31,713 nt of DNA from a virus. The notes below the pieces were generated by a model. The model made no database searches and was not told where the DNA came from. It saw only the letters and a program-made list of their open reading frames with translations. Made by a program: the position numbers and the translations under genes. The DNA lies in IMG/VR virus record IMGVR_UViG_3300032213_000590, positions 1 to 31,713 of that record, one strand, 5' to 3'. The stretch's first letter is position 1. Each line of letters starts with the position of its first letter. Positions 4,127 to 19,440 of the stretch are shown one piece after another.

Positions 4127-4128
4127 AT

Positions 4129-5289
4129 ATGTTTAAAAGAACGACTGCAATAAACAAGATTCTTTCGTTAAAAAAACGGATTAAGATAATTCAAGGGGGT
4201 ACCTCAGCGGGGAAGACATTTGGGATCTTACCCGTACTTATTGACAAGTGTGCAAAGGAAGCAGGACTTGAAGTATCAGTTGTTGCTGAATCAATTCCTC
4301 ACCTTAGACGTGGAGCGTTAAAAGACTTCATCAAGGTAATGCGATGGACAGGACGTTACAATGACGATAGATTCAATAAGACGCTTCTAAGATACGAATT
4401 CGGAAACGGAAGTGTTATGGAGTTCTTCTCAGCAGATGACGCATCTAAACTCAGGGGAGCAAGAAGAGACATCTTATACATCAACGAGTGCAATAACGTC
4501 AGCTTCGAATCTTACAACGAGCTTTCCATCCGTACAAAACGAGAAGTATTCTTAGACTTTAATCCGGCGAACGAGTTTTGGGTACACAAGGAACTAAAAG
4601 ACGAACCTGACTCAGACTTCATAATCTTAACTTACAAGGATAACGAAGCGTTAGACGAATCAATCGTAAGCCAAATAGAAAAGAATCGCGAGAAGGCAGA
4701 AACGAGTTCTTATTGGGCGAATTGGTGGAGAGTTTACGGACTAGGAGAAATCGGAAGTTTAGAAGGAGTAATCTTTAACAATTGGAAAACGATTGACACA
4801 ATACCAAGCGAAGCAAAGTTGATAGGAATCGGACTTGACTTTGGATATACGAACGACCCGACATCAGCAATCGAGATTTACAACTACAACGGACAAAGAA
4901 TAATCAACGAGATTTGCTATCGCACAGGAATGGTAAACTCTGACATCGCAAAAGTGCTCCCAAATCATGTAACAATTTACGCAGATTCAAGTGAACCTAA
5001 ATCAATCGAAGAAATCAGACGATTCGGAAAGATGATTAAAGGAGTTACGAAAGGAGTTGATTCAATCAAGTTCGGGATTGATGTAATGCAAAGACAGGAA
5101 TACTTAGTTACAAGTTCTAGTACGAACCTAATCAAAGAGCTGAGAAGCTATTGTTGGAGCGTAAAGAAAGATGGCGAAAAAACAAACGTTCCTATTGATC
5201 ATTACAACCACGCTATTGACGCACTCAGATATCACGAGATGGAAACACTAGGATTAAAAAAGAACTATGGACAATACAACATCAGATGA
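4129..5289 (+). CDS. terL: terminase large subunit
   Basis: 386 residues, the ATP-driven motor and nuclease that cuts and packages DNA into the prohead. The Walker A motif GGTSAGKT is at 23-30, Walker B ILYINE at 115-120 with catalytic E120, and a coupling motif FLDFNPANEFW starts at 141. The RNase H-like nuclease domain shows its acidic residues at D237 (GLDFGY), D286 (ADSSEP, 285-290) and D364 (HAIDALRY). All key residues are present, so it should be active. The GAGGAG just before the ATG is one of the few Shine-Dalgarno-like sites here. The 386-residue length is compact, typical of Terminase_3-like enzymes. Confidence 0.93.
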   Translation: MFKRTTAINKILSLKKRIKIIQGGTSAGKTFGILPVLIDKCAKEAGLEVSVVAESIPHLRRGALKDFIKVMRWTGRYNDDRFNKTLLRYEFGNGSVMEFFSADDASKLRGARRDILYINECNNVSFESYNELSIRTKREVFLDFNPANEFWVHKELKDEPDSDFIILTYKDNEALDESIVSQIEKNREKAETSSYWANWWRVYGLGEIGSLEGVIFNNWKTIDTIPSEAKLIGIGLDFGYTNDPTSAIEIYNYNGQRIINEICYRTGMVNSDIAKVLPNHVTIYADSSEPKSIEEIRRFGKMIKGVTKGVDSIKFGIDVMQRQEYLVTSSSTNLIKELRSYCWSVKKDGEKTNVPIDHYNHAIDALRYHEMETLGLKKNYGQYNIR

Positions 5290-5449
5290 TTTACCGATGA
5301 TGAAAAGAGTAGTGGAAGACTACATCTATCAGCGTACAGGAAAACGTATCTCAATAGTATTCGATGATGTTATGATGATAAGAAGACACTTCCAAATGCT
5401 GACTGCAGCATACGACATTATCCTAGTGCAACAAAACACGAACAAATAA
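5267..5449 (+). CDS. small hypothetical protein
   Basis: 60 residues (MDNTTSDDLPMMKRVVEDYIY...), overlapping the end of the large terminase by 23 bases. It is helical with no recognisable domain. Its 3' end contains the first late-type promoter motif (TGCAACA at 5427-5433), so this gene would belong to the upstream sigma/terminase transcript. Confidence 0.55.
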   Translation: MDNTTSDDLPMMKRVVEDYIYQRTGKRISIVFDDVMMIRRHFQMLTAAYDIILVQQNTNK

Positions 5450-5456
5450 GTTTATA
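5427..5456 (+). promoter_or_regulatory. phage late promoter candidate P1 (TGCAACA-N14-AAGTTTATA)
   Basis: TGCAACA (5427-5433), 14 bases, AAGTTTATA (5448-5456), then 4 bases to the ATG at 5461. It is one of four copies with identical halves and identical spacer. The fixed two-part geometry is that of a -35/-10 promoter and points to a sigma factor, most simply the one encoded at 2613. It would drive the tail gene block. Confidence 0.75.
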
Positions 5457-5460
5457 TATT

Positions 5461-6228
5461 ATGAAGTTAGAAATTAACGTACCTTCAAGCCTAAGTGAAA
5501 TTCCACTTAAACACTACCAAGAATTTCTTAAAATTCAGGCAGATTCCAACGATGAAGAATTTGTCGCTCAGAAGATGATTGAAATCTTTTGTGGTATATC
5601 TTTAAAGGACGTAGTTAAAATGAAGCTAACGAGCTTAAATGAGCTGATAGTACACTTCACACAGTTATTCTCAGAGAAACCTAAGTTCCAAAACAGGTTT
5701 AAAATTACATCTGAAGAAGGCGAGATTGAATTTGGATTCATTCCGGAATTAGAAGCAATTAGTTTTGGAGAATACGTTGATCTCGAATCACATCTTACGA
5801 ATTGGGATAGTTATCACAAAGCAATGGCAGTTATGTATCGTCCGATTATCAAAACACGGAAAGACAAATACGACATTTTACCTTACGAACCTAATGTTGA
5901 CTTTCAAGAATTAATGAAGTTTGCTCCATTGGATGTAGTAATAGCATCATCTGTTTTTTTTTGGAGTTTAGGAAACGAGTTACTACAGGCTACCCTGAAC
6001 TATTTGGAGAAGGAGATGAAGAAGGACATGAACCTATCAACGACTTTTCAGAAACAACTCAATTTGCCAAGCAATGGGGATGGTATCAAAGCATATATGC
6101 ACTCGCTAAAGGAGACGTTACAAGATTCGATGAAGTTACCGAGCTCAGACTTACTAAATGTCTTACCTATCTCGTCTTCGAAAAGCAAAAAAACGAAATT
6201 GAAAGAAGACAATTTGAACGCAATTTAA
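5461..6228 (+). CDS. probable tail assembly protein, frame-0 product
   Basis: 255 residues beginning MKLEINVPSSLSEIPLKHYQEFL, a type found in Bacteroidota siphophages upstream of tail genes. Residues 1-167 are shared with a second product made by a -1 shift at the T9 run (5954-5962). Frame 0 continues through FFWSLGNELLQATLNYLEKE (about 166-185) and ends in a Ser/Lys-rich tail at 6228. The two-product layout resembles the G/GT tail-assembly chaperones of lambda-like phages, which bind the tape measure. Unlike lambda, the tape measure is far downstream (12420) and frame 0 runs on for 88 codons after the slip site. Function is therefore inferred. Start ATG 5461 lies 4 bases after P1. Confidence 0.65.
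   Translation: MKLEINVPSSLSEIPLKHYQEFLKIQADSNDEEFVAQKMIEIFCGISLKDVVKMKLTSLNELIVHFTQLFSEKPKFQNRFKITSEEGEIEFGFIPELEAISFGEYVDLESHLTNWDSYHKAMAVMYRPIIKTRKDKYDILPYEPNVDFQELMKFAPLDVVIASSVFFWSLGNELLQATLNYLEKEMKKDMNLSTTFQKQLNLPSNGDGIKAYMHSLKETLQDSMKLPSSDLLNVLPISSSKSKKTKLKEDNLNAI
5954..5962 (+). other. slippery T9 run, candidate programmed -1 frameshift site
   Basis: In the zero frame the codons are GTT TTT TTT TGG (5953-5964). A one-base slip back lets the ribosome re-read T5961 and continue TTG GAG TTT AGG into the -1 frame, which is open from 5901 to 6236. The run of nine T is long for this genome and sits near the left edge of the overlapping open frame. Confidence 0.65.
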
Positions 6229-6236
6229 AACGATGA
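5961..6236 (+). CDS. -1 frame extension of the tail assembly gene (frameshift product C-terminus)
   Basis: 91 codons in the -1 frame (EFRKRVTTGYPELFGEGDEEGHE..., later QWGWYQSIYALAKGDVTRFDEVTELRLTKCLTYLVFEKQ) that read like a real folded domain. The WGWYQSIYALAKGDV segment has the feel of a conserved phage domain. Joined to residues 1-167 of the frame-0 gene it gives a 258-residue protein, almost the same length as the 255-residue frame-0 product. Its TGA (6234-6236) overlaps the ATG of the next gene (6233) in the ATGA form used across this genome. I infer frameshifting rather than a separate start, because the only start here would be a TTG inside the gene. Confidence 0.6.
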   Translation: MEFRKRVTTGYPELFGEGDEEGHEPINDFSETTQFAKQWGWYQSIYALAKGDVTRFDEVTELRLTKCLTYLVFEKQKNEIERRQFERNLKR

Positions 6237-6883
6237 CAGGATTCTACGACATACTAGACAAATTAAAATGGCACTTTGATAACGATGAGATCGTAAACTC
6301 TGTTACACAAGGCGACATCTTTCAGGTTGATCTTAACAAACAGACGATATTTCCATTGACGCACATAATGGTAAATAGTTCGTCTTTACAAAGCAACACA
6401 CAGACGTTTAACGTATCTATTCTAGCAATGGATATCGTAGACATTTCGAAGTCAGAAGTCACAGACGTATTCCAAGAGAATAACAACGAATTAGACGTTC
6501 TAAACACACAACATCACGTGTTGAATAGATGTTATCAGCAGATGCTTCATGGTAACTTGTGGGACTTAGATTTCGTAGTAGCCGGAGAGCCTACACTTGA
6601 GCCATTCACGGAAAGATTCGAGAACTTACTAGCAGGATGGACAATGACATTCGATGTTACTGTTCCTAACGATATGACTATTTGCGACACTGGTAGCTAT
6701 GCTCCTTACTGCTCACCTTCATACGTTGTAAACACGAACGGAAGTTACTCAGCAACTATTCAGAGTGGAGAAACTCTTACGTTACCTAACACGACATTGA
6801 ATCTACAAATAGACGGAACACAAGTAGCGACATCAACATTTGCAACTTTAAGCAATCAACTTATAAATTTAGTATGGCAATAG
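6233..6883 (+). CDS. probable tail terminator / tail-completion structural protein
   Basis: 216 residues. The segment GDIFQVDLNKQTIFPLTHIMVNSS (about 27-50), the MDIVD...EVTDVFQENNNELDVLNTQ stretch and the ending FENLLAGWTMTFDVTVPNDMTIC (about 129-151) are a pattern I associate with Bacteroidota phage tail-terminator or neck proteins. The last 65 residues (after Cys151) look like an appended beta-rich domain (SYSATIQSGETLTLPNTTLNL). It overlaps the upstream frameshift product (ATGA) and the downstream fibre gene by 10 bases. The assignment to tail terminator is positional and tentative. Confidence 0.6.
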   Translation: MTGFYDILDKLKWHFDNDEIVNSVTQGDIFQVDLNKQTIFPLTHIMVNSSSLQSNTQTFNVSILAMDIVDISKSEVTDVFQENNNELDVLNTQHHVLNRCYQQMLHGNLWDLDFVVAGEPTLEPFTERFENLLAGWTMTFDVTVPNDMTICDTGSYAPYCSPSYVVNTNGSYSATIQSGETLTLPNTTLNLQIDGTQVATSTFATLSNQLINLVWQ

Positions 6884-8043
6884 ACATAAACATTCCATCA
6901 CAGGTAAAGAACTACGCAAACCTAGCAGCATTTCCTGCAACAGGTACGCTAAAAACAATCTTCATAGCTAACGACACCAATAAGACATATCGTTGGACAG
7001 GTTCAGCATACGTTGAGATTTCACCTGCAGGAGCTACGGGAATCACCATCGGTACGACTGCAATCACATCGGGTACTGTTGGACGTGTATTGTTTGAAGG
7101 TACGGGAAATGTAGTTCAAGAATCGGGTAACTTGTTTTGGGATAATACGAATGGAAGGTTGGGTATTGGTGGAACGCCGACACAAACATTAGATATAAAC
7201 GGAAATTTCAGAATAGCAAAATCTACATTTTCATCTTTATTTGCTTTTAATAGTGGTGGATTTGGAGGTGATGCTTCATATATTGACACTTTATATCCGA
7301 TAAACGGAGGGTTAAGATTAGTTCCTAATTTCGCAACTTCTTTTGATGGTGCAACTTTTCAAATGTTTGGTGGAACAACACCAACATTAGCAGGTCAAAT
7401 GTATTTTGATTATGGCTCACAAGCAAGAACTATAACAACAAGAAGTGCCAATTGGCGAAATATGAATTTAGGTAGTACAACAAATGTATTGACCTTAACT
7501 GCAAACTCAAACGTCCTAATCAACACCACCACAGACGCAGGATACAAGCTAGACGTTAATGGTACTGCGAGGGTGGTAGGCTCAATGTTAATTCAAGGAA
7601 TGACCGTAGGACTTGGTGGAGGCGCAAATGTAAATAGCGTAGCAATAGGAAAAGAGGCATTACAAAATAACACAACTTATCAAAATTGTGCGGTAGGTTA
7701 TAGAGCATTGTACAATAACACGGGTGGAGATAATACCGCAATAGGTGCATTTTATGCAATGTTTGCAAATACAACGGGTAGCAGGAATACGGGCATCGGT
7801 ACTTACGCTTTAAATGGAAATACAACGGGACAATATAACACGGCATTAGGCTACAATACTTCATCGGGAAATTTTAGCAATAGCACTATTTTAGGTTATG
7901 GAGCGGCAGCAAGTGCTGACAACCAATTTGTTGTAGGAAGTTCAGCGGTAAATGCGGGAGCGGTAACAAGTGAAGTAAACGCATCCACACAAGTTTGGAA
8001 CGTAATTATAAACGGAGTAGCAAGAAAAATTTTATTAGCATAA
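6874..8043 (+). CDS. tail fibre / adhesin-like protein with head-domain repeats
   Basis: 389 residues. An N-terminal attachment-like part (MAIDINIPSQVKNYANLAAF...) is followed by two copies of the LGIG-LDINGNFRI / LDVNGTARVVG pattern (96-114 and about 216-235) common in trimeric phage fibres. Residues 254-343 are short repeats of the NTAIGxxAL-NNTTG type (SVAIGKEAL, CAVGYRALYNNTGG, NTAIGAFYAM, NTGIGTYALNGNTTG, NTALGYNTSSG), like YadA/Hep_Hag adhesin heads that form trimeric beta-rolls. No C-terminal peptidase S74 chaperone is visible. A role in surface binding is likely. Its place among tail-assembly genes, away from the other binding protein at 20031, suggests a tail or neck decoration. Confidence 0.7.
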   Translation: MAIDINIPSQVKNYANLAAFPATGTLKTIFIANDTNKTYRWTGSAYVEISPAGATGITIGTTAITSGTVGRVLFEGTGNVVQESGNLFWDNTNGRLGIGGTPTQTLDINGNFRIAKSTFSSLFAFNSGGFGGDASYIDTLYPINGGLRLVPNFATSFDGATFQMFGGTTPTLAGQMYFDYGSQARTITTRSANWRNMNLGSTTNVLTLTANSNVLINTTTDAGYKLDVNGTARVVGSMLIQGMTVGLGGGANVNSVAIGKEALQNNTTYQNCAVGYRALYNNTGGDNTAIGAFYAMFANTTGSRNTGIGTYALNGNTTGQYNTALGYNTSSGNFSNSTILGYGAAASADNQFVVGSSAVNAGAVTSEVNASTQVWNVIINGVARKILLA

Positions 8044-8044
8044 T

Positions 8045-8311
8045 ATGGAAACACAAACAAACGGAGTAGCGATTCAACCAATCGTCTATCCACTTAACGA
8101 AGGTACTGCGACACGATTATCCGTGTTAGTATTAAACTTCCCAACGGACGCAACGACTTGCACGACCTATTGGCAATTACTAACTGAGGAAGGAAAGACA
8201 TTAAGCGAAGGGAACTATACTTTAACTGAGGAACAATTCTTAACTTGGGGAACTGATAATTCAGTAGTGAACAAGTATGTCGCTGAAGCAATCGGAGTAG
8301 TAATCATCTAA
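8045..8311 (+). CDS. small conserved phage protein
   Basis: 88 residues (METQTNGVAIQPIVYPLNEGTATRLSVLVLNFPTDATTCTTYWQLLTEEGKTLSEGNYTLTEEQF...), beta-rich with an acidic C-terminal part. It starts one base after the fibre gene, so it probably goes with it, perhaps as an accessory structural or assembly protein. Similar short proteins are familiar beside Bacteroidota phage fibre genes, but I know no function. Confidence 0.6.
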   Translation: METQTNGVAIQPIVYPLNEGTATRLSVLVLNFPTDATTCTTYWQLLTEEGKTLSEGNYTLTEEQFLTWGTDNSVVNKYVAEAIGVVII

Positions 8312-8321
8312 AACACGAATC

Positions 8322-8450
8322 ATGTTAACACTATCAGAAGAACAAGTAAAGCAATTAGAAGCAATCTTAAGTGAGTTACCGATGAAGTTCGGAGTTCCTA
8401 TTTTGAATATCTTAAACGAAGCGAGTAAACCAAAGGATGAAGCAGAGTGA
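8322..8450 (+). CDS. very small hypothetical protein
   Basis: 42 residues (MLTLSEEQVKQLEAILSELPMKFGVPILNILNEASK...), apparently two helices and an acidic end. It fits exactly in the space between its neighbours and overlaps the next start by 14 bases. Its codon use is normal for the region. Function unknown. Confidence 0.55.
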   Translation: MLTLSEEQVKQLEAILSELPMKFGVPILNILNEASKPKDEAE

Positions 8451-8955
8451 ACTTCAAAAGGAATTAGATAGGTTTAAAAACTTTGTTATCAGCGAATCGC
8501 AGAAGAACTTGCGTAAGCTAGGAAAAGACGGAGGTAAACTTTACGATTCAATTGAAGGACGTGTTAAAGCAAATCCTAACTCTTTTGAAATGGAGTTCTC
8601 AATGGAGGAGTACGGAATCTACCAAGATAAAGGAGTTTCAGGTACTGAGAAGAAATACAATACTCCGTTTAAATACAAAAAAGGTAACAAGAATGTACCA
8701 CCACCAAGAGCATTTGACAAATGGGCAGTAAGAAAAGGATTAGCACCTAGAACAAAGACAGGAAAATTTGCTAGTAGGTCAGGATTAAAATTTGCTTTAT
8801 CTAGATTCATACAGAAAAACGGAATTAAACCTAGTTTATTTTTCACTAAACCATTTGAAAAAGCATACAAGAAATTACCACAAGATTTGGTAGACGCATT
8901 TGGAGTAGATGCAATAAAATTATTTAATGATTCAATATATTTAACACAAAAATAG
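8437..8955 (+). CDS. HK97 gp10-like head-tail connector (neck) protein
   Basis: 172 residues with features of the HK97-gp10 family: a helical N-terminus (LDRFKNFVISESQKNLRKL), a Lys-rich SxEGRVKANPNSFEMEFSMEEYGIYQDKGVSG core (about 38-69), a basic loop with PPPRAFDKWAVRKGLAP, and the ending PSLFFTKPFEKAYKKLP (about 136-152). This C-terminal PSLFFTKPFEKAY segment is characteristic of Bacteroidota phage versions. It would sit at the neck, joining capsid and tail. Its stop abuts the next ATG at 8956. Confidence 0.7.
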   Translation: MKQSELQKELDRFKNFVISESQKNLRKLGKDGGKLYDSIEGRVKANPNSFEMEFSMEEYGIYQDKGVSGTEKKYNTPFKYKKGNKNVPPPRAFDKWAVRKGLAPRTKTGKFASRSGLKFALSRFIQKNGIKPSLFFTKPFEKAYKKLPQDLVDAFGVDAIKLFNDSIYLTQK

Positions 8956-10002
8956 ATGTCAATATTTGCAAGGTCACCATATATTTTAACGATTAACGAA
9001 ACAGGACAAACTGCTTCAATGATTCAAATCTTTCTTTGGAATGGAAACACGACTCCAATGCCGAGTTCACCTGCGTACACGTTAAGTAAGCAAATACCTT
9101 CGTCAAGTTCACCTGCTACCTATTACGACTTGTCACCTTACATTCGTGAGTTTATCAATCACAATACATTACAGAATGTCACAAGTGGTAATCCTGTTAC
9201 TCCTGCTGCACAATGGTGTTGGATTGGAATCAAGACATTCAAGAAAACTACAGGTGGATTCGTTCAGTTTGGTTCTACCATCACGAGAAGATGTTATGAA
9301 GGGTACGGAAATTACACGGACGGAGCAAATCCGAATCTATTTATAGCACACCTTTCACCAATAGACTCTTACTACTACAATGACGGAACAGGTAACACAG
9401 GACATATTACAATTGAAGGAGCAAGTGGATATTCAATCAAGTACACTAATCTAGTAACAGGAGCAGTTCAAACAGGTTCGTTGGCTACGTCAAATGTAAA
9501 TGATTGGGCGAAAGTTTATCCTACATATTTAAGTGCAGGAAATCTTGTTGAAATCATCACAGGAGGAAGCACAGTATGGAGTGCAACATTTAGACCTAAG
9601 GAAGAATGTAAATACACACCGATTCGTTGCGACTTTGTAAACAAATACGGAGCGTGGCAAACTGAGTGGTTTTTTAAAGCAAGTAACAATTCTATCAGCG
9701 TTGAAAACACGGAATACAATTTAATGCCTGCAACTTATCCTGCTTACGATGTTCAGGAAGGTCAAAGAAAAGTCTTTAACACAAACGCAAAAGAACAGAT
9801 CAAGGTTAACACCGATTGGGTAAACGAAAGTTTCTCAGAAACGATTAGACAACTAATGCTTAGCGAAAGAATTTTACTAGACAAATCACCTGTGAAGATA
9901 AACACGAAATCAACAGAGCTTTTCAAAAGCATCAACACACATATGATCAACTACCAACTAGACTTTGAATATGCTTACGACACAATTAACTCAGTAGTGT
10001 AA
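8956..10002 (+). CDS. distal tail structural protein
   Basis: 348 residues beginning MSIFARSPYILTINETGQ, an N-terminus I associate with tail-tip proteins of Bacteroidota phages. The middle is beta-rich and Ser/Thr/Gly-rich. The segment ECKYTPIRCDFVNKYGAWQTEWFF (about 216-239) is the most family-like stretch. The C-terminus is charged (KSTELFKSINTHMINYQLDFEYAYD). It overlaps the next gene by one base (TAATG), so the two were probably made together. By position it could be a distal tail or baseplate hub protein; which one is not clear. Confidence 0.65.
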   Translation: MSIFARSPYILTINETGQTASMIQIFLWNGNTTPMPSSPAYTLSKQIPSSSSPATYYDLSPYIREFINHNTLQNVTSGNPVTPAAQWCWIGIKTFKKTTGGFVQFGSTITRRCYEGYGNYTDGANPNLFIAHLSPIDSYYYNDGTGNTGHITIEGASGYSIKYTNLVTGAVQTGSLATSNVNDWAKVYPTYLSAGNLVEIITGGSTVWSATFRPKEECKYTPIRCDFVNKYGAWQTEWFFKASNNSISVENTEYNLMPATYPAYDVQEGQRKVFNTNAKEQIKVNTDWVNESFSETIRQLMLSERILLDKSPVKINTKSTELFKSINTHMINYQLDFEYAYDTINSVV

Positions 10003-12269
10003 TGAATAGAAAAGTACAAGTATACATCGAAGGACAAAGACTTGAACTGTTCAACGATGAGCAGATTCAGGTAACATCCACACAACAAAACGTAGCAGAC
10101 ATTTCAAAGACTTACACTGACTTTTCACAAAGTTTTACCGTTCCTGCTTCGCCATATAATAACGCTATCTTACAACACTTTTATCAGAGTGATGTTGACG
10201 CGACTATTGACCATAATATCAGAAGAAATGCTTTCATTGAAATTGACTTGACTTTCTTCCGTAGGGGTAAAATGCAAATTGATAAAGCACAACTAAAAAA
10301 CGGACAAGCAGAAAGTTACACATTAAGTTTCTTTGGTGATGGTAAGACGTTATTAGATTACTTTGGAGAGGACTTGTTATCAGATTTGGACTACACACCT
10401 GTAAACCATCTATACAACGGAACACAGGTAAGAGCAAGGCTTATTGATGGAACGAATGCTTATGATGTAAAATATCCTTTGATTAGCTCACAACGAGTAT
10501 GGACTTACGATGGAAATGCTCCGACAACAATATCACCTGCTTACTTTTCAATACCTACAACTAGTTCACACGACATAAAACAAACGTCAGGACATATTCA
10601 CTATAATGAGCTATTTCCTGCAGTCAGAGTTAAAAAAATATTTGAGCAAATCGCAGATAAATACGGAGTTACCTTTAATGGAAACTTCCTAAGTGACGAT
10701 AGGTTTACAAAGCTATTCTTGTGGTACAAAAACAAGAACGAGTATTACTTTTATTCAGAACCTCAACCGATTGACTTTACAAGTTTATCTACATCAGGAA
10801 ACGATGCAAGTAATGCTTTTAATTTAACTGAAAATTCTTTGAGAGTTAAATATTTAGGTTTATTTCAAGGATCTCACAATATTATTTTAAACGTAAACTC
10901 AATTTCATCTCCTACAGGTGCAATTATAGATGTTTACCAAAATGGGAACTTATATCAAAGCATTCCATTCAGTACTGCAGGAGCATTACCAACAATAACA
11001 ATTCAAGACACAATTGGACTTGATGCTACTTACACTTTTAAAATCAGAACTCACACTGCAGTTACTGTTAACGTTTCTGTTATTTACACAATCACTGCAA
11101 TAATTGCTAGTGTCTTAATTCCTTTTGCAGCTTGTTCAGCAACTTGTGCTAATAATGTAATGATCATAAACACGGACTTAGCAGGACTTGCTCCTGTGAT
11201 GAAAGTAAGCGACTTCTTTAGTGGGATTTGTAAAGTATTCAATCTGACTTGTTACGCTACATCTGAAAACACGTATCAACTAGAACCATTAGACGATTGG
11301 TATTCAGCAGGTGCGATTGTAGACATTTCACAATTCACAGACGTAGATACGATAGACGTTGACAAGATGAAACTTTATAAGAAGATTACGATGAAATATC
11401 AAAATTCGGAATCCTTCTTAAACAAGCAATTCAGTCAGTTATTTATGCGTGAGTATGGAGATACTTCTTATCAGTATTCTTACGATGGTGACGAGTTTAC
11501 TTTGGACGTTCCATTCGAGAATTTGTTACAGACGAAATTCACAGGAACAAACTTACAAGTGGGTTACTCACTAAATAACGAATTTGCTCCGTATATTCCT
11601 AAACCAATTCTACTTTATCAGTACGACAATCAAGACGTAGACTTTCACTTTAACAACGGAACGTCTACACTAAACATCACAAATTACACACCATTCGGAC
11701 AAGATCTTTACACGAACTTAACCAATTATACGTTAAACTTCGCTCCGGATATTTCTACGATTCTGAATCAACCTGTGCAACAAACGTTATTCGGGACGTA
11801 CTACTTTTCTTATTTGTACAATCTTTACAATCTGAAGCAGAGATTGATCAGCGTTAAAACTATTCTACCTATCGGACTATTGACAGGACTACGTTTAAAC
11901 GACAGATTGGTAATCAGAGATAAACGCTACATCATTAACTCGATGCAGTCTAATCTAACAACAGGCGAAGTAAACTTCCAATTGATCCTAGATTTCAGAC
12001 CGATGGTAAACTCAACGCAAATACCTTACGTTGGTGTGGATGGTGGAGATATTGAACTAGCAATTGACTTTGTTAACGACACATTCTCTTCAATGATGAC
12101 TTCGACTAATTCAGACGTAGTGATTGCACCTGATTACATTGAAGCTGCTCAGTTAGTGACTGTAACTTTACCTAGTGGAACTGCAGGAACGGTATATCCA
12201 ATAGACGTTGAATACACATTGAACTCAGGAATCATAGAAACACGAACCATAAACATCATACAACAATGA
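10002..12269 (+). CDS. large tail tip / baseplate protein
   Basis: 755 residues, the largest product in the genome. The N-terminus (VQVYIEGQRLELFNDEQIQVTSTQQNVADISKTYTDFSQSFTVPASPYN, split here around residue 20) is a hallmark of Bacteroidota siphophage tail-tip proteins. The FTVPAS segment (about 45-50) and the later MNSTQIPYVGVDGG stretch mark domain edges. The last 65 residues resemble a small Ig-like or BACON-like beta domain (SDVVIAPDYIEAAQLVTVTL ...). It may act as tail hub and carry adhesin-like domains. It is made in tandem with the preceding gene and before the tape measure. Exact role is inferred from size and order. Confidence 0.7.
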   Translation: MNRKVQVYIEGQRLELFNDEQIQVTSTQQNVADISKTYTDFSQSFTVPASPYNNAILQHFYQSDVDATIDHNIRRNAFIEIDLTFFRRGKMQIDKAQLKNGQAESYTLSFFGDGKTLLDYFGEDLLSDLDYTPVNHLYNGTQVRARLIDGTNAYDVKYPLISSQRVWTYDGNAPTTISPAYFSIPTTSSHDIKQTSGHIHYNELFPAVRVKKIFEQIADKYGVTFNGNFLSDDRFTKLFLWYKNKNEYYFYSEPQPIDFTSLSTSGNDASNAFNLTENSLRVKYLGLFQGSHNIILNVNSISSPTGAIIDVYQNGNLYQSIPFSTAGALPTITIQDTIGLDATYTFKIRTHTAVTVNVSVIYTITAIIASVLIPFAACSATCANNVMIINTDLAGLAPVMKVSDFFSGICKVFNLTCYATSENTYQLEPLDDWYSAGAIVDISQFTDVDTIDVDKMKLYKKITMKYQNSESFLNKQFSQLFMREYGDTSYQYSYDGDEFTLDVPFENLLQTKFTGTNLQVGYSLNNEFAPYIPKPILLYQYDNQDVDFHFNNGTSTLNITNYTPFGQDLYTNLTNYTLNFAPDISTILNQPVQQTLFGTYYFSYLYNLYNLKQRLISVKTILPIGLLTGLRLNDRLVIRDKRYIINSMQSNLTTGEVNFQLILDFRPMVNSTQIPYVGVDGGDIELAIDFVNDTFSSMMTSTNSDVVIAPDYIEAAQLVTVTLPSGTAGTVYPIDVEYTLNSGIIETRTINIIQQ

Positions 12270-12427
12270 TCAAGCAAATAATAGCAATGTTAGCCATAGA
12301 CAATTTCTACGGAGTATCAGAGAACATAGACATCGCAAAAGGAAAGTACGCATACACGACATCCTTTAGGAAAATGACACGTCAAGAAAGAAGAAAACAC
12401 GCACTAAAAAAAGTAAAAAATGGCTGA
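12266..12427 (+). CDS. small basic protein before tape measure
   Basis: 53 residues with a neutral N-terminal half (MIKQIIAMLAIDNFYGVSEN) and a strongly basic end (RKMTRQERRKHALKKVKNG). Its ATG overlaps the previous stop (ATGA) and its end overlaps the tape-measure start by 8 bases, so it fills the gap exactly. The position is where lambda-like phages carry the tail-assembly chaperone, but this protein is too short and too basic to claim that. Confidence 0.55.
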   Translation: MIKQIIAMLAIDNFYGVSENIDIAKGKYAYTTSFRKMTRQERRKHALKKVKNG

Positions 12428-14237
12428 AAAGAAAGTAATTGAATTAGACTTAAAAACTAACACGGAGTTTACGGTTACTGCTTTAAAGAAAGCACAACGT
12501 GAAGTAGCTATCCTATCAGAGAAATTTGGTGCAACGTCAAAGGAAGCAATTGAAGCAGCAAAACAAGCCGCGATTCTAAAAGACAAAATTGGTGATGCTA
12601 AAAGTTTAACTGATGCGTTTAATCCGGATGCTAAATTCAAGGCTTTATCAGGTTCATTGACAGGTGTTGCAGGTGGGTTCTCCGTTGTTACGGGTGCTAT
12701 GGGTACGTTTGGCGTTGAAAGTGAAGCAGTAGAAAAGACTTTATTAAAAGTTCAATCTGCAATGGCATTAGCATCAGGTGCTCAGGCATTAGGAGAAAGC
12801 ATTGATTCATTCAGACAATTAGGAGCAGTAGCTAAAACTGCATTAAGTGGAATTAGAACAGGTATTGCTGCTACAGGAATAGGACTTTTTGTTGTTGCAT
12901 TAGGTACAGTCGTAGCATATTGGGACGATATCAAAACAGCAGTTAGTGGAGTAAGTGAAGAACAGGAAGCGTTAAATGAGCAAACTCACCAAAACACGGA
13001 GTTTGAAAAGGAAAAACTTGAAACATTAGGTTCACAAGATAACATTCTAAAACTTCAAGGTAAGACTGAAAAAGAAATCTTACAAATCAAGATTGCACAG
13101 AACGAGCGTGTTATAAAAACTACTGAAGCAGAAATTAAGCAAAAAGAAATTACTGCCAAACTTGAAATCAAAGCAGCCGAAAGAAATGCTTCGATAATGA
13201 AAACTGCGTTAAAGGCATCATTGGAATTTAGTGCTTTTGGTTTACGTTTATTGGCAGCACCGATTGATTTAGTTTTAACTACTGCAAATAAAATATCTGA
13301 AGCATTAGGATTCGGAAAGATTACTGCAGTAAATCTAAACGATGAAATCAGTAATTTAATAAACTACGGAGCAGAAAAATTAACTTCGTTCATATTCGAC
13401 CCTGCAGCAACAAAAGCAGCAGCAGAAGCAGACATTCAAGAAACGAAGGATGGTTTAATTAAAATGAAAAATGAAGTTGCCGGATTTAAACTTCAAATCA
13501 TTGAATTAGACAAACCGAGTAAAACTGCCAAAAAAGAAACCGAGAAGGCATTCGAAAGTTACGAGAAATTAGAATACAAAAAAGCTCAGTTATTAAAGCA
13601 TTCAGAAATTACGCTACAAGGTCACGTAAATGAAAACGTAAGAATTCAAAAGGAAGCAGCAGAACACGAACTATTAATACTACAAGCAAAAGCAATTAAA
13701 GCTCAGCAATTAGATGAGAAAGCACAATCTGAAAAAGTTAAATTAACCAAAGCAGGATTCGACACTATTGCACAAATATCAGAGTTATTCGGAAAGCGAA
13801 GTGAAGCACAAGCGAGAAAAGCATTCAAAGTTCAAAAGGCAGCGAGTATGGCAAGTGCTTTGATTACAACTTACCAAAGTGCAAGGAGTGCTTATGCTTC
13901 TCAGTTCGTTCCATTACCTGACCCAAGTTCGCCTGTACGTGGAGCAATCGCAGCAGGTATAGCAATTGCATCCGGATTAGCAAACGTAGCAAAAATAGGA
14001 CAACAAAAATTCGAAGGAGGTTCACCATCAGGAGGTGGAGGGAATATACCTTCAGGAAATCTAGGTGGAGGTGGCACAGTTATGTCTCCAAACTTCAATA
14101 TTGTAGGCAATTCAGGGATGAATCAGTTAGCACAACTTCAGCAACAACCTACGAAGGCTTATGTGGTATCAGGTGACATGACAACTGCACAGGCGTTAGA
14201 TCGCAACAGAATCGAAAATGCAACATTAGTACAATAA
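12420..14237 (+). CDS. tail tape measure protein
   Basis: 605 residues, long and largely helical. It has a coiled N-terminus (LKKAQREVAILSEKFGATSK, about 22-41), a hydrophobic middle (LTGVAGGFSVVTGAMGTFG at about 79-97; GIGLFVVALGTVVAYWDDI at about 152-170, probably membrane-inserting), a long Lys/Glu/Ala coiled coil (about 190-260 and 360-445) and a Gly-rich C-terminal linker (GGSPSGGGGN). The YWDDI segment after a membrane-like span is typical of tape measures. At roughly 0.15 nm per residue it predicts a tail of about 90 nm. It sets tail length and enters the host envelope. Promoter P2 lies over its last codons. Confidence 0.85.
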   Translation: MAEKKVIELDLKTNTEFTVTALKKAQREVAILSEKFGATSKEAIEAAKQAAILKDKIGDAKSLTDAFNPDAKFKALSGSLTGVAGGFSVVTGAMGTFGVESEAVEKTLLKVQSAMALASGAQALGESIDSFRQLGAVAKTALSGIRTGIAATGIGLFVVALGTVVAYWDDIKTAVSGVSEEQEALNEQTHQNTEFEKEKLETLGSQDNILKLQGKTEKEILQIKIAQNERVIKTTEAEIKQKEITAKLEIKAAERNASIMKTALKASLEFSAFGLRLLAAPIDLVLTTANKISEALGFGKITAVNLNDEISNLINYGAEKLTSFIFDPAATKAAAEADIQETKDGLIKMKNEVAGFKLQIIELDKPSKTAKKETEKAFESYEKLEYKKAQLLKHSEITLQGHVNENVRIQKEAAEHELLILQAKAIKAQQLDEKAQSEKVKLTKAGFDTIAQISELFGKRSEAQARKAFKVQKAASMASALITTYQSARSAYASQFVPLPDPSSPVRGAIAAGIAIASGLANVAKIGQQKFEGGSPSGGGGNIPSGNLGGGGTVMSPNFNIVGNSGMNQLAQLQQQPTKAYVVSGDMTTAQALDRNRIENATLVQ

Positions 14238-14248
14238 TCAAGTTTATA
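14219..14248 (+). promoter_or_regulatory. phage late promoter candidate P2 (TGCAACA-N14-AAGTTTATA)
   Basis: TGCAACA (14219-14225), 14 bases, AAGTTTATA (14240-14248), then 4 bases to the ATG at 14253. The first half lies in the last codons of the tape measure gene. Same halves and spacing as P1, P3 and P4. It would drive the protease/scaffold/capsid block. Confidence 0.75.
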
Positions 14249-14252
14249 AAAT

Positions 14253-14846
14253 ATGGCAAAGATTATAGAATTAGTAATTGACGAAAAGGATTCATTGAGT
14301 GGAATTGACGCAGTTTCTGTGGTTCATTCTCCGGCAATCGAGGAGAACTTCATTCACTTATCAAAACACGAAGTAGAGTTAAAAGAAGTAGACACGGAAA
14401 AACGTATCTTAATGGGAGCAGCATTAGTTCCTGATAAGCAAATCTACCGAGTAAACGAAAAGACGAAAGAAGAATACTACATTTATTTTTCTGCTGATAC
14501 GGTTCGCAAAGCATCAGAGTTATTCTTAATGAACTCAAATCAAAACAATGCTACCTACGAACATGACAAGAAGTTAAAAGGAATGTCAGTTGTAGAAAGT
14601 TGGATCATTGACGATAGTAAAACGGATAAAAGTCGATTTTATGGCTTTGATTTGCCAAAAGGAACTTGGATGATTTCCATGAAGGTAAATAACGATCAAG
14701 TATGGAAAGACGTAAAAGAAGGTAAAGTAAAAGGATTCTCAATAGAAGGTTACTTTGCTGACAAGTTAGAAATGTCAATGATTAGTGAAGAAGATTTATT
14801 AATTGAAAAAATCAAACAAATAATTTTAGAAGATGGCAAAAACTAA
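14253..14846 (+). CDS. XkdF-like prohead maturation protein / putative protease
   Basis: 197 residues. The stretch MNSNQNNATYEHDKKLKGMSV (about 92-112), then VESWIIDDSKTDKSRFYGFD and LPKGTWMISMKVNNDQVWKD (about 113-152), and the ending VKGFSIEGYFADK (about 158-170), match the phage XkdF-type domain, which sits where a prohead protease would be. A His near NATYEH and a Ser in GFSIEG are candidate catalytic residues, but I cannot assign a triad. It lies just upstream of scaffold and capsid, as a maturation protease should. Being a distant type, protease activity is an inference. Confidence 0.7.
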   Translation: MAKIIELVIDEKDSLSGIDAVSVVHSPAIEENFIHLSKHEVELKEVDTEKRILMGAALVPDKQIYRVNEKTKEEYYIYFSADTVRKASELFLMNSNQNNATYEHDKKLKGMSVVESWIIDDSKTDKSRFYGFDLPKGTWMISMKVNNDQVWKDVKEGKVKGFSIEGYFADKLEMSMISEEDLLIEKIKQIILEDGKN

Positions 14847-15030
14847 AACACCAAGTTACTCTAGTCCAAAAGGAGGACGCAGAGGATGTCTATGTGAAAA
14901 CGGAACTTACTCAAGCAAATGTTGTGATGGATCTTTACAGGCGCAAGGCATAGGAATGACTACAGGAACTGAAAGCGTTACGATAACAGTTGATTCAGGA
15001 GTAAGAACAACAGTTCGTCAGAACGGATAA
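14833..15030 (+). CDS. small Cys-rich phage protein
   Basis: 65 residues, MAKTKTPSYSSPKGGRRGCLCENGTYSSKCCDGSLQAQGIG (written here only as landmarks: CLC at 19-21, CC at 30-31), then a Thr/Val-rich end. Four Cys in a short span suggest a small metal or disulfide knot. The GRRGCLCENG...SxKCCDG form is familiar from Bacteroidota phages, usually near the capsid genes, but its function is unknown to me. It overlaps the protease gene by 14 bases. Promoter P3 begins just after its stop. Confidence 0.65.
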   Translation: MAKTKTPSYSSPKGGRRGCLCENGTYSSKCCDGSLQAQGIGMTTGTESVTITVDSGVRTTVRQNG

Positions 15031-15033
15031 AAA

Positions 15034-15063
15034 TGCAACAAAGTAAGTATTAACAAGTTTATA
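15034..15063 (+). promoter_or_regulatory. phage late promoter candidate P3 (TGCAACA-N14-AAGTTTATA)
   Basis: TGCAACA (15034-15040), 14 bases, AAGTTTATA (15055-15063), then 15 bases (A-rich, TAAAAAAGATAAAAA) to the ATG at 15079. It is the only one of the four with a possible short leader. It would drive scaffold and, most importantly, the major capsid gene. Confidence 0.75.
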
Positions 15064-15078
15064 TAAAAAAGATAAAAA

Positions 15079-15663
15079 ATGAAAAATAGCACAATTAACA
15101 AAATCAAAGCACTTTTAGGAATGGAAGTGAGTTTAGAAATGATGAAGTTGATGGACGGAATCACAGTTCTTGAAGCAGACGCATTTGAAATGGATAACGA
15201 AGTATTTATCATCACAGAAGACGAGCAAAAGATTCCATTACCGATTGGAGAATACGAACTAGAAAACGGAATGATTCTAGTAGTAGCAGTAGAAGGAATT
15301 ATTGCTGAAATCAAAGAAGCAGTAGTTGAAGAAGAAGTTGCTCCTGAAGCAGAAGTAGAAGTTGAGGTTGAAGCAGAAGCTGCACCTGTTGCTCCACAAG
15401 CTAAGAAAACAGTTGAATCAATCGTTAAAGAAACATTCTTCTCAGAAATCGAAGCACTTAAAAACGAAAATACTGAATTGAAAGCTAAATTGGAAAGTCT
15501 TTCTAAAGTTGAAGAAGTTACAGAAGAGGTAACCGAACTTTCAGAAGAGCCAAAACCAATCAGTTTTAATCCTGAAAACACGAATCAAGTTGAAACTTTC
15601 AAGTTTGCTAAAAACAGAGAGCGTAACACATTGGATTCAATCTTAGAAAAATTTAACAAATAA
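15079..15663 (+). CDS. capsid scaffolding protein (probable)
   Basis: 194 residues, extremely acidic in the middle (about 80-105, runs of Glu/Val/Ala such as VVEEEVAPEAEVEVEVEAEA), followed by a coiled coil (SEIEALKNENTELKAKLESL, about 127-146) and a basic C-terminal hook (FAKNRERNTLDSILEKFNK). Acidic linker, coiled coil and basic C-terminus just before the major capsid gene is the standard layout of phage scaffolds, where the C-terminus binds capsid protein. P3 lies upstream. The long frame on the opposite strand here is a shadow of the repetitive GAA codons. Confidence 0.75.
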   Translation: MKNSTINKIKALLGMEVSLEMMKLMDGITVLEADAFEMDNEVFIITEDEQKIPLPIGEYELENGMILVVAVEGIIAEIKEAVVEEEVAPEAEVEVEVEAEAAPVAPQAKKTVESIVKETFFSEIEALKNENTELKAKLESLSKVEEVTEEVTELSEEPKPISFNPENTNQVETFKFAKNRERNTLDSILEKFNK

Positions 15664-15689
15664 TATTAACTAACAAACATTTTTAAAAA

Positions 15690-16640
15690 ATGGCAACTAC
15701 AACATCAATTACTACAACTTACGCAGGTGAGTTCGCAGGTAAATACATCGCTGCTGCTTTGTTATCTGCACCAACATTGGACAAAGGTGGAATCACTATC
15801 GTTCCTAATGTAAAATACAAACAAGTTATCAAACGTGTAGCTACTGACGGAATCGTTAAAGACGCTACTTGTGACTTTGATGCTACATCAACAATCACGT
15901 TGACTGAGAAAATCCTTCAACCTGAAGAATTCCAAGTTAACTTACAATTGTGTAAAAAAGATTTCGTTTCTGATTGGGAAGCAATTTCTATGGGTTACTC
16001 TGCATTCGAAGTGATGCCGAAAAACTTTACAGACTTCTTATTAGCACATGCTGCTGAGAAAGTTGCTGCTGCAATGGAAACATCTATTTGGACAGGAGCT
16101 AACGCAACTGCAGGTCAGTTCGCAGGTTTGATGACACAATTGACAACAGATGCTACTTTGCCATCAGGTCAAGAGGTTGCAGGTACTACAGTTACTGCTG
16201 CTAACGTTATCACTGAGTTAGGTAAAGTTGTTGACGCTTGTCCTGCTGCTATCTACGGAAAAGAAGACTTAACATTGTATGTATCTAACAACATCTACCG
16301 TGCTTATGTACGTGCTTTGGGTGGATTCGGTGCTTCAGGTTTAGGTGCTAATGGTTACGACAACAAAGGAACAAACCAAACTTTAGGTGATGTTTACTTT
16401 GATGGCGTTCGTGTATTCATGGCAAACGGATTGGCTGCTAACACTGCGTTACTTGCACAAAAATCTAACTTGTACTTTGCGACAGGACTTTTAAATGATA
16501 TGAATGAAGTGTCTGTCCTAGACCTCGCTCAAATTGACGGTTCGCAAAATATTCGTGTAGTTATGCGATTTACTGCAGACGCGAAATATGGTTTTGCATC
16601 AGACGTAGTTACTTACGGAATCACAAACTCTGCTAACTAA
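15690..16640 (+). CDS. major capsid protein
   Basis: 316 residues, the likely HK97-fold shell subunit. Consistent signs: start just after scaffold, length in the usual 290-400 range, a beta-rich N-terminal part (VPNVKYKQVIKRVATDGIVKD), a long central helix with AAEKVAAAMETSIWTG (about 120-135) and a C-terminal beta segment ending NIRVVMRFTADAKYGFASDVV. Codon use changes sharply here to GCT, GGT, ACT, CGT and GTT, unlike the A-ending codons of its neighbours. That is typical of the most highly expressed gene. A terminator follows 20 bases after the stop. Confidence 0.85.
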   Translation: MATTTSITTTYAGEFAGKYIAAALLSAPTLDKGGITIVPNVKYKQVIKRVATDGIVKDATCDFDATSTITLTEKILQPEEFQVNLQLCKKDFVSDWEAISMGYSAFEVMPKNFTDFLLAHAAEKVAAAMETSIWTGANATAGQFAGLMTQLTTDATLPSGQEVAGTTVTAANVITELGKVVDACPAAIYGKEDLTLYVSNNIYRAYVRALGGFGASGLGANGYDNKGTNQTLGDVYFDGVRVFMANGLAANTALLAQKSNLYFATGLLNDMNEVSVLDLAQIDGSQNIRVVMRFTADAKYGFASDVVTYGITNSAN

Positions 16641-16659
16641 TATTAACAGACAATAATTG

Positions 16660-16689
16660 AAAGGGGAGGTCAAATGCCTTCCCTTTTTT
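16660..16689 (+). terminator. intrinsic terminator after capsid gene
   Basis: AAAGGGGAGG (16660-16669) pairs with CCTTCCCTTT (16677-16686) over 10 positions with one G-T pair and a 7-base loop, ending in T to 16689. It would stop most capsid mRNA, raising capsid levels relative to genes after it. Some read-through into the tail tube gene is needed, as no promoter motif is seen between. Confidence 0.8.
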
Positions 16690-16713
16690 GTTTAACTTAA
16701 AAAATATATAAAA

Positions 16714-17277
16714 ATGGCTTGTGATATCTCAAATGGCAGATTAGAAGTATGTAAAGACGCAGTAGGTGGAATTGACGCAATCTACTTCATCAACTTCGGA
16801 GATTACTCTTATCCTGCTGACATTACCTATACAACAGGTACAGACACAATTGATGCAATTGCTAACGTAACTTCATTGTACAAATACGAATTGAAAGGAA
16901 CTAACTCTTTCGATCAAGTAATCACGTCTTCTCGTGAGAACGGAACTTCATTCGTAGAGCAAACGTTATCAGTAGTATTGAAAAAACAAGATGCTGCTAC
17001 ACACAAAACAGTTAAATTGTTATCTTATGGAAGACCTAACATCGTAGTGAAAACACGTAACAACCAATTCTTCCTTGCAGGTTTGGAGCATGGAATGGAA
17101 TTAACTACTGCTAACGTAGCAAGTGGGACTGCAATGGGTGACTTGAACGGTTACACGTTAACATTCGTAGGAACAGAAAAATTGTTAGCTAACTTATTAG
17201 ATGCTACATCTGAAGCAGACTTAGTAGGTTCAGTTGGTGACGTATTTGGAGCAACTACAACTATCGTTACTTCATAG
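16714..17277 (+). CDS. major tail (tube) protein
   Basis: 187 residues beginning MACDISNGRLEVCKDAVGGI, an N-terminus I know from Bacteroidota siphophage tail tube proteins. The C-terminal part (NQFFLAGLEHGMELTTANVA at about 112-131, then SGTAMGDLNGYTLTFVGTEK) is also characteristic. Beta-rich throughout, as expected for a tube subunit. Codon use is as biased as the capsid gene (GCT, GGT, GTA, ACT), indicating high expression. It sits between two terminators, next to the capsid gene rather than beside the tape measure, an unusual place. The call is from sequence style plus expression signature. Confidence 0.75.
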   Translation: MACDISNGRLEVCKDAVGGIDAIYFINFGDYSYPADITYTTGTDTIDAIANVTSLYKYELKGTNSFDQVITSSRENGTSFVEQTLSVVLKKQDAATHKTVKLLSYGRPNIVVKTRNNQFFLAGLEHGMELTTANVASGTAMGDLNGYTLTFVGTEKLLANLLDATSEADLVGSVGDVFGATTTIVTS

Positions 17278-17298
17278 TTCTTTTTTCATAGTGATCAG

Positions 17299-17326
17299 AA
17301 GGGGTGGCTTAGGTTACCCCTTTTTT
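17299..17326 (+). terminator. intrinsic terminator after tail tube gene
   Basis: AAGGGGTGGC (17299-17308) pairs with GTTACCCCTT (17313-17322) with two G-T pairs and a 4-base loop (TTAG), followed by T to 17326. It sits directly before late motif P4, which begins 4 bases after the T run. Confidence 0.85.
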
Positions 17327-17329
17327 ATT

Positions 17330-17359
17330 TGCAACAAATTCATGCTATTTAAGTTTATA
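17330..17359 (+). promoter_or_regulatory. phage late promoter candidate P4 (TGCAACA-N14-AAGTTTATA)
   Basis: TGCAACA (17330-17336), 14 bases, AAGTTTATA (17351-17359), then 4 bases to the ATG at 17364. The terminator immediately upstream makes this the clearest case of a promoter: a new transcript must begin here for the portal block. Same halves and spacing as P1-P3. Confidence 0.8.
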
Positions 17360-17363
17360 AAGT

Positions 17364-17696
17364 ATGATAGTATTAACGCCTTCTACATCAGCTCAAACTT
17401 TTTCGTTTATTCCTCGCTTTGAGAATTACACGACAATGGCAATTACTGACGAACAAACAAACGTAACTACAACAGTTGCTATTACAAGTTCAACTCAAGG
17501 TGGCTATGTAAACACGATCACTGCTACTTTTGCACTAGTAGACAATCACACATACACACTTTTACTATCAAACGGATCAACTATCTGTCACAAGGACAAA
17601 GTTTTCTGCACAAATCAATCAATCGCAACATTCTCCGTAAATGACGGACAATATACTTCTAATGCCACAACAAACACTTTCATAGTTTATGAGTGA
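17364..17696 (+). CDS. small beta-rich structural protein
   Basis: 110 residues (MIVLTPSTSAQTFSFIPRFE...), Thr/Ser-rich and beta-like, ending in VNDGQYTSNATTNTFIVYE. Such proteins are common beside Bacteroidota phage portal genes; a head or tail decoration role is plausible but unproved. It is the first gene after P4 and overlaps the portal gene by 8 bases. A 62-residue frame at 17234 in another register is a shadow across the terminator. Confidence 0.6.
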   Translation: MIVLTPSTSAQTFSFIPRFENYTTMAITDEQTNVTTTVAITSSTQGGYVNTITATFALVDNHTYTLLLSNGSTICHKDKVFCTNQSIATFSVNDGQYTSNATTNTFIVYE

Positions 17697-19440
17697 TAAC
17701 GTACACATATTAAGCCTAAGTGCTTACACAACGCCTACGATTCAAGAATCTAAAAAAGATAATTGGGTTGAATTTGGCGAGGACAATAATTACTATTCTT
17801 TCCTTATAGATAGATACACGAATTCTACAACGAATAACGCTATTATAAACAATATTAGTCGCTTAGTATACGGAAAAGGATTAAGTGCATTAGATGCGTC
17901 TAAAAAGCCTAATGAGTACGCTCAGATGATGGCTTTGTTTAACAAAGATTGCATTCGTAAAATGGTTCTTGATAGAAAGATGTTAGGTCAGTTTGCTATT
18001 CAGGTACACTACAATGATAAACACGACAAGATTCTAAAGGCGTATCATATGCCGATTAACTTATTACGTGCAGAGAAATGTAATAAAGACGGAGAAATTA
18101 CGGGATATTACTATTCTGATGATTGGACAGACGTTAAGAATTTTGCTCCTGTGCGTTACTCAGCTTTTGGAACATCTAAAGACAAGGTAGAAATCTTGTT
18201 TTCTAAGCCTTACGCAGTCGGAATGAAATACTATTCTTATCCGGACTATCAAGGTTCAGTTCCATACGCACTTTTAGAAGAAGAAATAGCAGATTACTTG
18301 ATCAACGAAGTACAAAACGGATTCTCAGGAACTAAGGTAGTAAACTTCAACAACGGAGTTCCTACTGAAGAGCAGCAGTCAATGATTACTTCTAAAGTAA
18401 TGAACAAGTTGACAGGTTCACGAGGACAAAAAGTAATCGTAGCATTCAACGACAATACTGAATCTAAAACAACTGTAGACGATATTCCATTAAATGACGC
18501 ACCTGAGCATTACACGTACCTTTCTGAAGAGTGTTTACGTAAGATCATGCTAGGTCACAACGTAACTTCTCCATTGTTATTTGGAGTTGCTAGTTCAAAT
18601 GGATTCTCAAGTAACGCAGATGAACTTAAAAACTCTGCTATCTTGTTTGATAACATGGTTATTCGTCCAATGCAAGAAGAGTTATTAGACGCATTTGATA
18701 CAATCTTAGCATTTAACGGAATTGCTCTTAAACTATTCTTCAAAACATTACAACCTTTAGAGTTCACAGACCTTGAAAACACGCAAACAGAAGAACAAGT
18801 TGCAGAAGAAACAGGTACTGAATTAAGTTCGCATACAAACGCATTGATTGATTTAGGTGAAGATGCAGACCCTAGTTGGGTTTTAGTAGACGAAAAGCCT
18901 GTTGATTACGATAATGACGATTTAGAAAACGAACTATTAAGTCAAGAACCAAAACAAAGCCTTTTAAGCAAAATCTATAATCTCGTTTCTACGGGTGATG
19001 CAAGACCAAACATAACAGATAAGCAGGATAAAACAATTGATGGCGTTAAATTCGTTGTGAGATACAAATACGAAGGTCAAGTGAGTAAGAATCCTCGTGA
19101 CTTTTGTACTGCAATGGTAAAAGCTAATAAACTTTACAGAAAACAAGACATCCTTAACATGGGAAGTCAAGTTGTTAACGCAGGTTGGGGGCCGAACGGA
19201 AGTGATACTTATTCAATTTGGTTATACAAAGGTGGAGGTAACTGTCATCACAGATGGAACAAACAAGTGTATGCGGTTTTTGAAGGTACTGCATTAGACT
19301 TACCAAACCAAAGACAAATCGCACAAGCAAAGGCTGCTAAATTTGGCTATAAAATCACGAATCCTGAACTTGTTTCAACGCGTCCTGTTGATATGCCTTA
19401 CAACGGATTTTTACCAACTAATAAAACTTACGGGAAATAA
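17689..19440 (+). CDS. portal protein with extra C-terminal Cys/His domain
   Basis: 583 residues. The first about 400 are portal-like: an N-terminal wing with NNYYSFLIDRYTNSTTNNAI, a basic clip region, and EEIADYLINEVQNGFSGTKVV followed by helices with ECLRKIMLGHNVTSPLLFGV (about 285-305) and ADELKNSAILFDNMVIRPMQEEL. These match SPP1/PBSX-like portals of Bacteroidota phages, the ring through which DNA passes. After an acidic linker (about 400-440) comes a domain of about 110 residues with PRDFCTAMVKANKLYRKQDIL, NAGWGPNGSDTYSIWLYKGGGN and CHHRW. Cys and His there could bind metal. I know similar tails on minor head proteins, so this looks like a portal fused to a head-morphogenesis domain. Confidence 0.8.
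   Translation: MSDNVHILSLSAYTTPTIQESKKDNWVEFGEDNNYYSFLIDRYTNSTTNNAIINNISRLVYGKGLSALDASKKPNEYAQMMALFNKDCIRKMVLDRKMLGQFAIQVHYNDKHDKILKAYHMPINLLRAEKCNKDGEITGYYYSDDWTDVKNFAPVRYSAFGTSKDKVEILFSKPYAVGMKYYSYPDYQGSVPYALLEEEIADYLINEVQNGFSGTKVVNFNNGVPTEEQQSMITSKVMNKLTGSRGQKVIVAFNDNTESKTTVDDIPLNDAPEHYTYLSEECLRKIMLGHNVTSPLLFGVASSNGFSSNADELKNSAILFDNMVIRPMQEELLDAFDTILAFNGIALKLFFKTLQPLEFTDLENTQTEEQVAEETGTELSSHTNALIDLGEDADPSWVLVDEKPVDYDNDDLENELLSQEPKQSLLSKIYNLVSTGDARPNITDKQDKTIDGVKFVVRYKYEGQVSKNPRDFCTAMVKANKLYRKQDILNMGSQVVNAGWGPNGSDTYSIWLYKGGGNCHHRWNKQVYAVFEGTALDLPNQRQIAQAKAAKFGYKITNPELVSTRPVDMPYNGFLPTNKTYGK

Follow-up and report, generated by a model that had tools for sequence, protein, structure and literature searches.

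Two-part promoters of a tailed phage, very probably read by its own ECF-like sigma factor, whose -10 boxes change together with an exchanged sigma2 domain

The DNA analysed here (the window) is a viral sequence of 31,713 bases, IMG/VR record IMGVR_UViG_3300032213_000590, and its features are collected in Table 1. A gene for an ECF-like sigma factor lies shortly before the terminase genes and is followed by four blocks of genes, each preceded by a copy of the two-part motif TGCAACA-N14-AAGTTTATA. A pattern scan of the whole window detected four exact copies, all on the + strand and with spacers unlike one another. An earlier reading made from the sequence alone (the sequence-only reading) had listed four identical copies and judged them too regular for chance; they were found exactly where it placed them, and dinucleotide shuffling bears out the judgement. 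Four copies is the top recurrence among all pairs of a 7-mer and a 9-mer separated by 5 to 25 bases in the window, and the same pair search in 30 dinucleotide shuffles gave a maximum of 2 copies in 29 and 3 in one. The window holds no copy with one or two mismatches and only two with three; a control pattern gave 0.

The same reading held that the copies precede the first genes of structural blocks. This was confirmed for the tail, protease and scaffold/capsid blocks, but at the fourth copy a 110-residue ORF (17364) comes first and the portal gene (17689) second. The terminator that it saw immediately before that copy is real. The transcript from this site is inferred to reach the endolysin gene. 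We refer to the putative promoters as late because of the functions of the genes downstream.

Table 1. Features of the window and, in the last row, of phage P12024L; predicted transcription start sites (TSS) follow the geometry of SigH (PMC6411747).
Feature	Position	Strand	Details
Predicted intrinsic terminator	2522-2545	+	upstream of sigma gene
TAAGTTTG	2590-2597	+	upstream of sigma gene; possible host -7 box; TTG missing at usual spacing
ECF-like sigma factor	2613-3140	+	175 aa; sigma2 residues 1-88 (2613-2876), sigma4 about residues 106-165 (2928-3107)
Terminase genes	3713-5289	+	small 3713-4126, large 4129-5289
P1, putative late promoter	5427-5456	+	-35 TGCAACA 5427-5433, -10 AAGTTTATA 5448-5456; predicted TSS 5461 = A of ATG
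P1 block, tail region	5461-14237	+	first gene 5461-6228, tape measure 12420-14237
P2, putative late promoter	14219-14248	+	predicted TSS 14253 = A of protease ATG
P2 block	14253-15030	+	head maturation protease (XkdF-like), then small ORF
P3, putative late promoter	15034-15063	+	predicted TSS about 15068; 11-nt leader, scaffold ATG 15079
P3 block	15079-17277	+	probable scaffold, major capsid 15690-16640, 16714-17277
Predicted intrinsic terminator	16659-16688	+	after capsid gene
Intrinsic terminator	17297-17324	+	directly upstream of P4; -17.6 kcal/mol, z -4.25
P4, putative late promoter	17330-17359	+	predicted TSS 17364 = A of ATG
P4 block	17364-22685	+	17364-17696, portal 17689-19440, 19440-19940, on to endolysin 22122-22685
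P12024L genes with CGTTA boxes	179, 3031, 5412, 24771, 26011, 27612

The sequence-only reading had also placed an ECF-like sigma factor ahead of these genes, and profile and fold both uphold it. The window ORF alone matches Pfam weakly. A family profile built from 43 members, including two bacterial sigma factors, matches SigL (7e-12), SigH (1.5e-9), SigW (3.7e-9) and also SigE; the alignments to SigL and SigH run near full length, with a sigma2 plus sigma4 layout that lacks sigma1 and sigma3. The NCBIfam ECF model TIGR02937 matches all 43 alignment members; for the window protein it gives 7.7e-6 and 25.6 bits, under the curated cut-off of 42.9. An AlphaFold model of the protein has a pLDDT of 82 (folding from the single sequence was poor, pLDDT 48), and its best Foldseek matches are ECF sigma factors, with SigE (1or7; E 1.9e-3, probability 1.00) first, followed by SigL, AlgU, SigH and SigW. 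The sigma4 half superimposes on SigE region 4 bound to -35 DNA (2h27_D) with a TMt of 0.81 and an rmsd of 1.7. By profile scan the family comprises at least 555-574 loci in IMG/VR. The genome contigs database yielded only 4 distant sigma-like proteins (24-27% identity), and a direct tblastn of INPHARED phages with two family members gave no match. The motif itself is ECF-like in geometry, with a -35 core CAAC and a -10 core GTT, and base frequencies over 75 sites give CAAC...GTT; this arrangement fits a reading of -35 AAC and -10 GT by an ECF factor.

A cultured relative, Nonlabens (Persicivirga) phage P12024L, carries a sigma gene (gp35; 7e-17 to the family profile) just before TerL. Six of its annotated genes (Table 1) are preceded by a CGTTA box whose GTT stands at -11 relative to the ATG, with AACA further upstream. 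P12024L and P12024S (NC_018272, NC_018271) share with the window the sigma gene before TerL and a homologous capsid, and P12024L also the GTT at -11, but they are very distant in sequence, the capsid being 30% identical. The papers that we found do not describe their promoters. From this relationship the host is inferred to belong to the Bacteroidota. As annotated, positions 16409-18674 of P12024L (L423) encode a 2OG-Fe oxygenase, a glucosyl-HMC transferase and a methyltransferase, and its DNA is possibly hypermodified.

In related phages, where the sequence-only reading had proposed to look for it, the motif is present upstream of orthologous genes, and it tracks the sigma2 domain and not the backbone. 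Relatives whose sigma factor is 60-94% identical (class A) carry it in corresponding positions, and their spacers have diverged, for example TGCAACA-AAATTCAAATATTA-AGGTTTATA. Five phages (class B, G006-G010) have a backbone like that of class A and a sigma4 that is 90-92% (G007, G008) or 73% (G010) identical to that of the window, together with a sigma2 of only about 31-33% identity to class A and about 30-32% to the window. Their promoters occupy the same positions and keep the -35 core, with a changed -10 half: boxes of the TCGTTTTAA type in G007-G009 and mostly ACGTTTAAA-like boxes in G006 and G010. The exchange shows in the pair G016 and G008, which are 98% identical in backbone, 100% in sigma4 and 33% in sigma2; DNA identity along their sigma genes is 0.36-0.67 over nucleotides 15-330 and 0.96-1.00 over 330-509.

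Each of five backbone gene trees requires at least three to five switches of sigma2 class. Three promoter regions of 45 nt, one ahead of each ATG-anchored site, contain 13 fixed differences between the classes (7, 3 and 3), against none in six control upstreams and none among the 5,927 variable columns of coding DNA (13,799 aligned columns, 18 backbone genes). The only gene that separates class A from class B is the sigma gene. Two ORF families restricted to class A are, from their coordinates, apparently antisense to sigma2. A motif kept in a phage lacking the sigma factor was not encountered, since every fetched phage contig of at least 25 kb with motif copies at these positions also encodes it. 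Exact matches outside the family in an IMG/VR scan were mostly one common coding-like stretch, TGCAACACCATCAAGATAAATAAGTTTATA, that lacks a correctly spaced ATG, and were set aside as chance; that this stretch, in L009 and similar loci, looks coding is a caution for scans by pattern alone. In relatives, the last part of the 23095 gene holds a near-copy, TGCATCA...AAGTTTGTA, that departs from the motif by 2-3 mismatches; we likewise rejected it, as it looks coding (HHKEFGQ). By eye, the window ORFs at 24192-24851 and 29128-29622 resemble homing endonucleases of the GIY-YIG and HNH types, the first adjoining the 23095 gene.

Covariation was measured over the family in 27 dereplicated phages with three sites each; in distant phages the sites were obtained from ortholog-anchored upstreams, and not by a de novo 7-mer search per locus. 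The -10 boxes of one genome resemble each other (0.763 vs. 0.594 when shuffled, 0/2000), whereas the spacers do not (0.398 vs. 0.384, 316/2000), and control genes have no within-genome excess (0.373 in both). In Mantel tests, -10 distance correlated with sigma2 distance (0.40, p 0.0005; 0.41 partial on backbone) and not significantly with backbone (0.09); against sigma4 given sigma2 the value was -0.15. The -35 half correlated with sigma4, partial on sigma2, at 0.32 (p 0.002). Because it also follows the backbone (0.54), this half of the case is weaker, and at the last class B site a G-to-A change at -33 occurs although sigma4 is the same, a point against the main reading.

At the level of single residues, 48 sigma2-dereplicated phages were compared. 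Among the best-supported pairings, residue 63 goes with base -12 (N with A in 32/33, S with C in 12/12), residue 67 with base -11 (D with G in 26/26; Q, L, M or Y with A in 14/15), and residue 70 with base -12 (K with A in 21, R with C in 13). In a HMMER alignment to SigH, residue 67 corresponds to N92 and residue 63 to N88, which in the SigH structure contact C-11 of the template strand and T-10, respectively (PMC6411747). The highest z for -11 belongs to a sigma4 residue, L155 (21.2), with a mutual information of 0.62 vs. 0.91 for residue 67; this signal is probably a clade effect. Independent supported transitions on the sigma tree number four for residue 63, all concordant (p 0.125), and one for residue 67. 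P12024L combines N63, D67 and R70 with C at -12, so residue 70 rather than 63 may determine this base. The L331 sigma factor has R67 and C at -11 (AGACTTATAA), a possible third code letter, and the sigmas of L326, L327, L328, L330 and L332, with A63, D67 and R70, go with -10 cores CGTC, not CGTT.

The distance from motif to gene bears on where transcription would begin. The first tail gene is represented by 95 distinct upstreams; in 77 of them a GTT/ATT core begins exactly 11 nt ahead of the ATG, and in 8 GTT lies at -13. SigH places its GTT at -11 to -9 relative to the start point (PMC6411747), so that by analogy +1 would be the A of the ATG. T occupies -1 at 93% of sites vs. 21% of control genes, as expected at a start point. 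With the core at -11 in 77/95, many late mRNAs of the family are thus probably leaderless. At P3, where the motif lies 15 nt before the ATG, the prediction is a short leader instead. A variant that overlaps this interpretation keeps the same sigma factor and promoters and moves every start a few nucleotides off the ATG, giving ordinary short leaders. The longer distance at P3 and in 8/95 upstreams would suit it, as would the rarity of leaderless mRNAs in flavobacteria, which make up 5.5% in F. psychrophilum (PMC9723704), 87% of leaders in F. johnsoniae exceeding 10 nt (PMC6847099). The exact -11 spacing, the SigH geometry and the T at -1 point the other way; this variant is unlikely, if still deserving of some weight.

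We consider it very likely that the four motif copies serve a tailed phage as late promoters read by its own ECF-like sigma factor, with -10 boxes that co-change with the exchanged sigma2 and with three predicted leaderless starts. The sigma profile and fold and the tracking of sigma2 by the motif strongly support the proposal of the sequence-only reading that a sigma factor of the phage itself reads these two-part late promoters. In the mechanism that we envisage, the sigma2-sigma4 protein would bind host core RNA polymerase, sigma4 reading the -35 half (core CAAC) and sigma2 the -10 half (core (A/C)GTT). The start point would lie 11 nt downstream from the G of GTT. At P1, P2 and P4 this position is the A of the start codon, so that the mRNAs of the tail, protease and portal blocks would have no leader; the remaining site would give a short one. 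Among the relatives, sigma2 was exchanged on several occasions, the late -10 boxes altering along with it.

Two other readings dispense with the phage sigma factor. The -10 half contains TAAGTTTA at two sites, one base off the Bacteroidota TAnnTTTG, and could be read by the host primary sigma, with TGCAACA as the binding site of a phage activator. If the host sigma did the reading, the -10 half should not vary with sigma2 as it does (TCGTTTTAA, ACGTTTAAA, TTAATTATAA), and the sigma gene is alone in segregating by promoter class. The earlier impression that the host-type promoter is also present here is not borne out by counts: TAnnTTTG occurs 13 times forward vs. 12 and 42 times in reversed controls, TTG-N17-23-TAnnTTTG has one forward occurrence, and the full promoter is absent at all four motifs and not enriched in the window. 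Nor do these counts favour the view of that reading that early genes use the host sigma. We regard the host-read alternative for the four motifs as most improbable. The constant distance to the ATG and the abundance of A around it (at -3, 71% of sites and 61% of controls have A) might instead suggest a Bacteroidota translation-initiation signal recognized by the ribosome. Such a signal would hardly have a second half 14 nt further upstream at constant spacing, lying partly within preceding genes, nor stay unchanged at P3, 15 nt from the ATG; the motif is also missing at control genes and covaries with a sigma domain. We give this explanation almost no credence.

Phage ECF sigma factors are already known. 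As far as the excerpts of PMC4331800 and PMC7881722 go, the sigma factor of phiEco32 and 7-11 directs middle and late promoters with the consensus TAATGTATA, is termed ECF in phiEco32, with homologs in Kuravirus, and resembles the present system in driving structural genes through phage-specific promoters and host core enzyme. It differs in its consensus (here CAAC...GTT) and in its enterobacterial hosts, and those excerpts describe neither a co-shift of sigma2 and -10 nor a leaderless arrangement. SigH of M. tuberculosis shares the -35 GGAACA, the -10 G-11 T-10 T-9, rigid spacing, the sigma2-sigma4 layout and, in N92 at the -11 pair, a residue that aligns with residue 67 here, but is a cellular stress sigma of low identity with an AACA-GTT gap of 17 vs. 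16 here (PMC6411747). Engineered chimeric ECF sigmas with swapped sigma2 and sigma4 domains read matching chimeric promoters (Rhodius 2013, PMC3817407); those are laboratory constructs, whereas here the swap is natural and the late promoters are altered in concert. The promoters of F. psychrophilum SM6 (PMC9723704) serve host genes, those described here a phage. In the open-licence papers covered by our literature search we found neither a recurrent exchange of sigma2 in nature accompanied by -10 boxes altered in concert nor such leaderless late promoters. The sigma family, its swapping of sigma2 and -10 in nature and the probably leaderless starts appear to be new.

The family offers a natural domain-swap test of promoter reading by sigma factors across hundreds of uncultured phages, and P12024L makes the system testable in culture. 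Pairing of residues 63, 67 and 70 with bases -12 and -11 could aid prediction of ECF specificity and the design of orthogonal sigma/promoter pairs for Bacteroidota. Leaderless late mRNAs are a further prediction, for a phylum with few leaderless genes, and the system raises the question of how unlinked promoters change jointly. Tentatively, and with rather more doubt than confidence, we suggest that sigma2 domains and their matching -10 boxes form interchangeable specificity types, in which several unlinked late promoters repeatedly switch jointly. A recombinant of mismatched types would then fail, the system would be a transcriptional incompatibility barrier between co-infecting relatives, and it would make a residue-to-base code of ECF sigma2 readable.

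Upstream of the sigma gene itself (2566-2612), GCAAC-N16-CGTAAGTTTG is kept in class A and class B phages. Two roles are conceivable for it, autoregulation through an ECF-type promoter or a host -7 box (TAAGTTTG).
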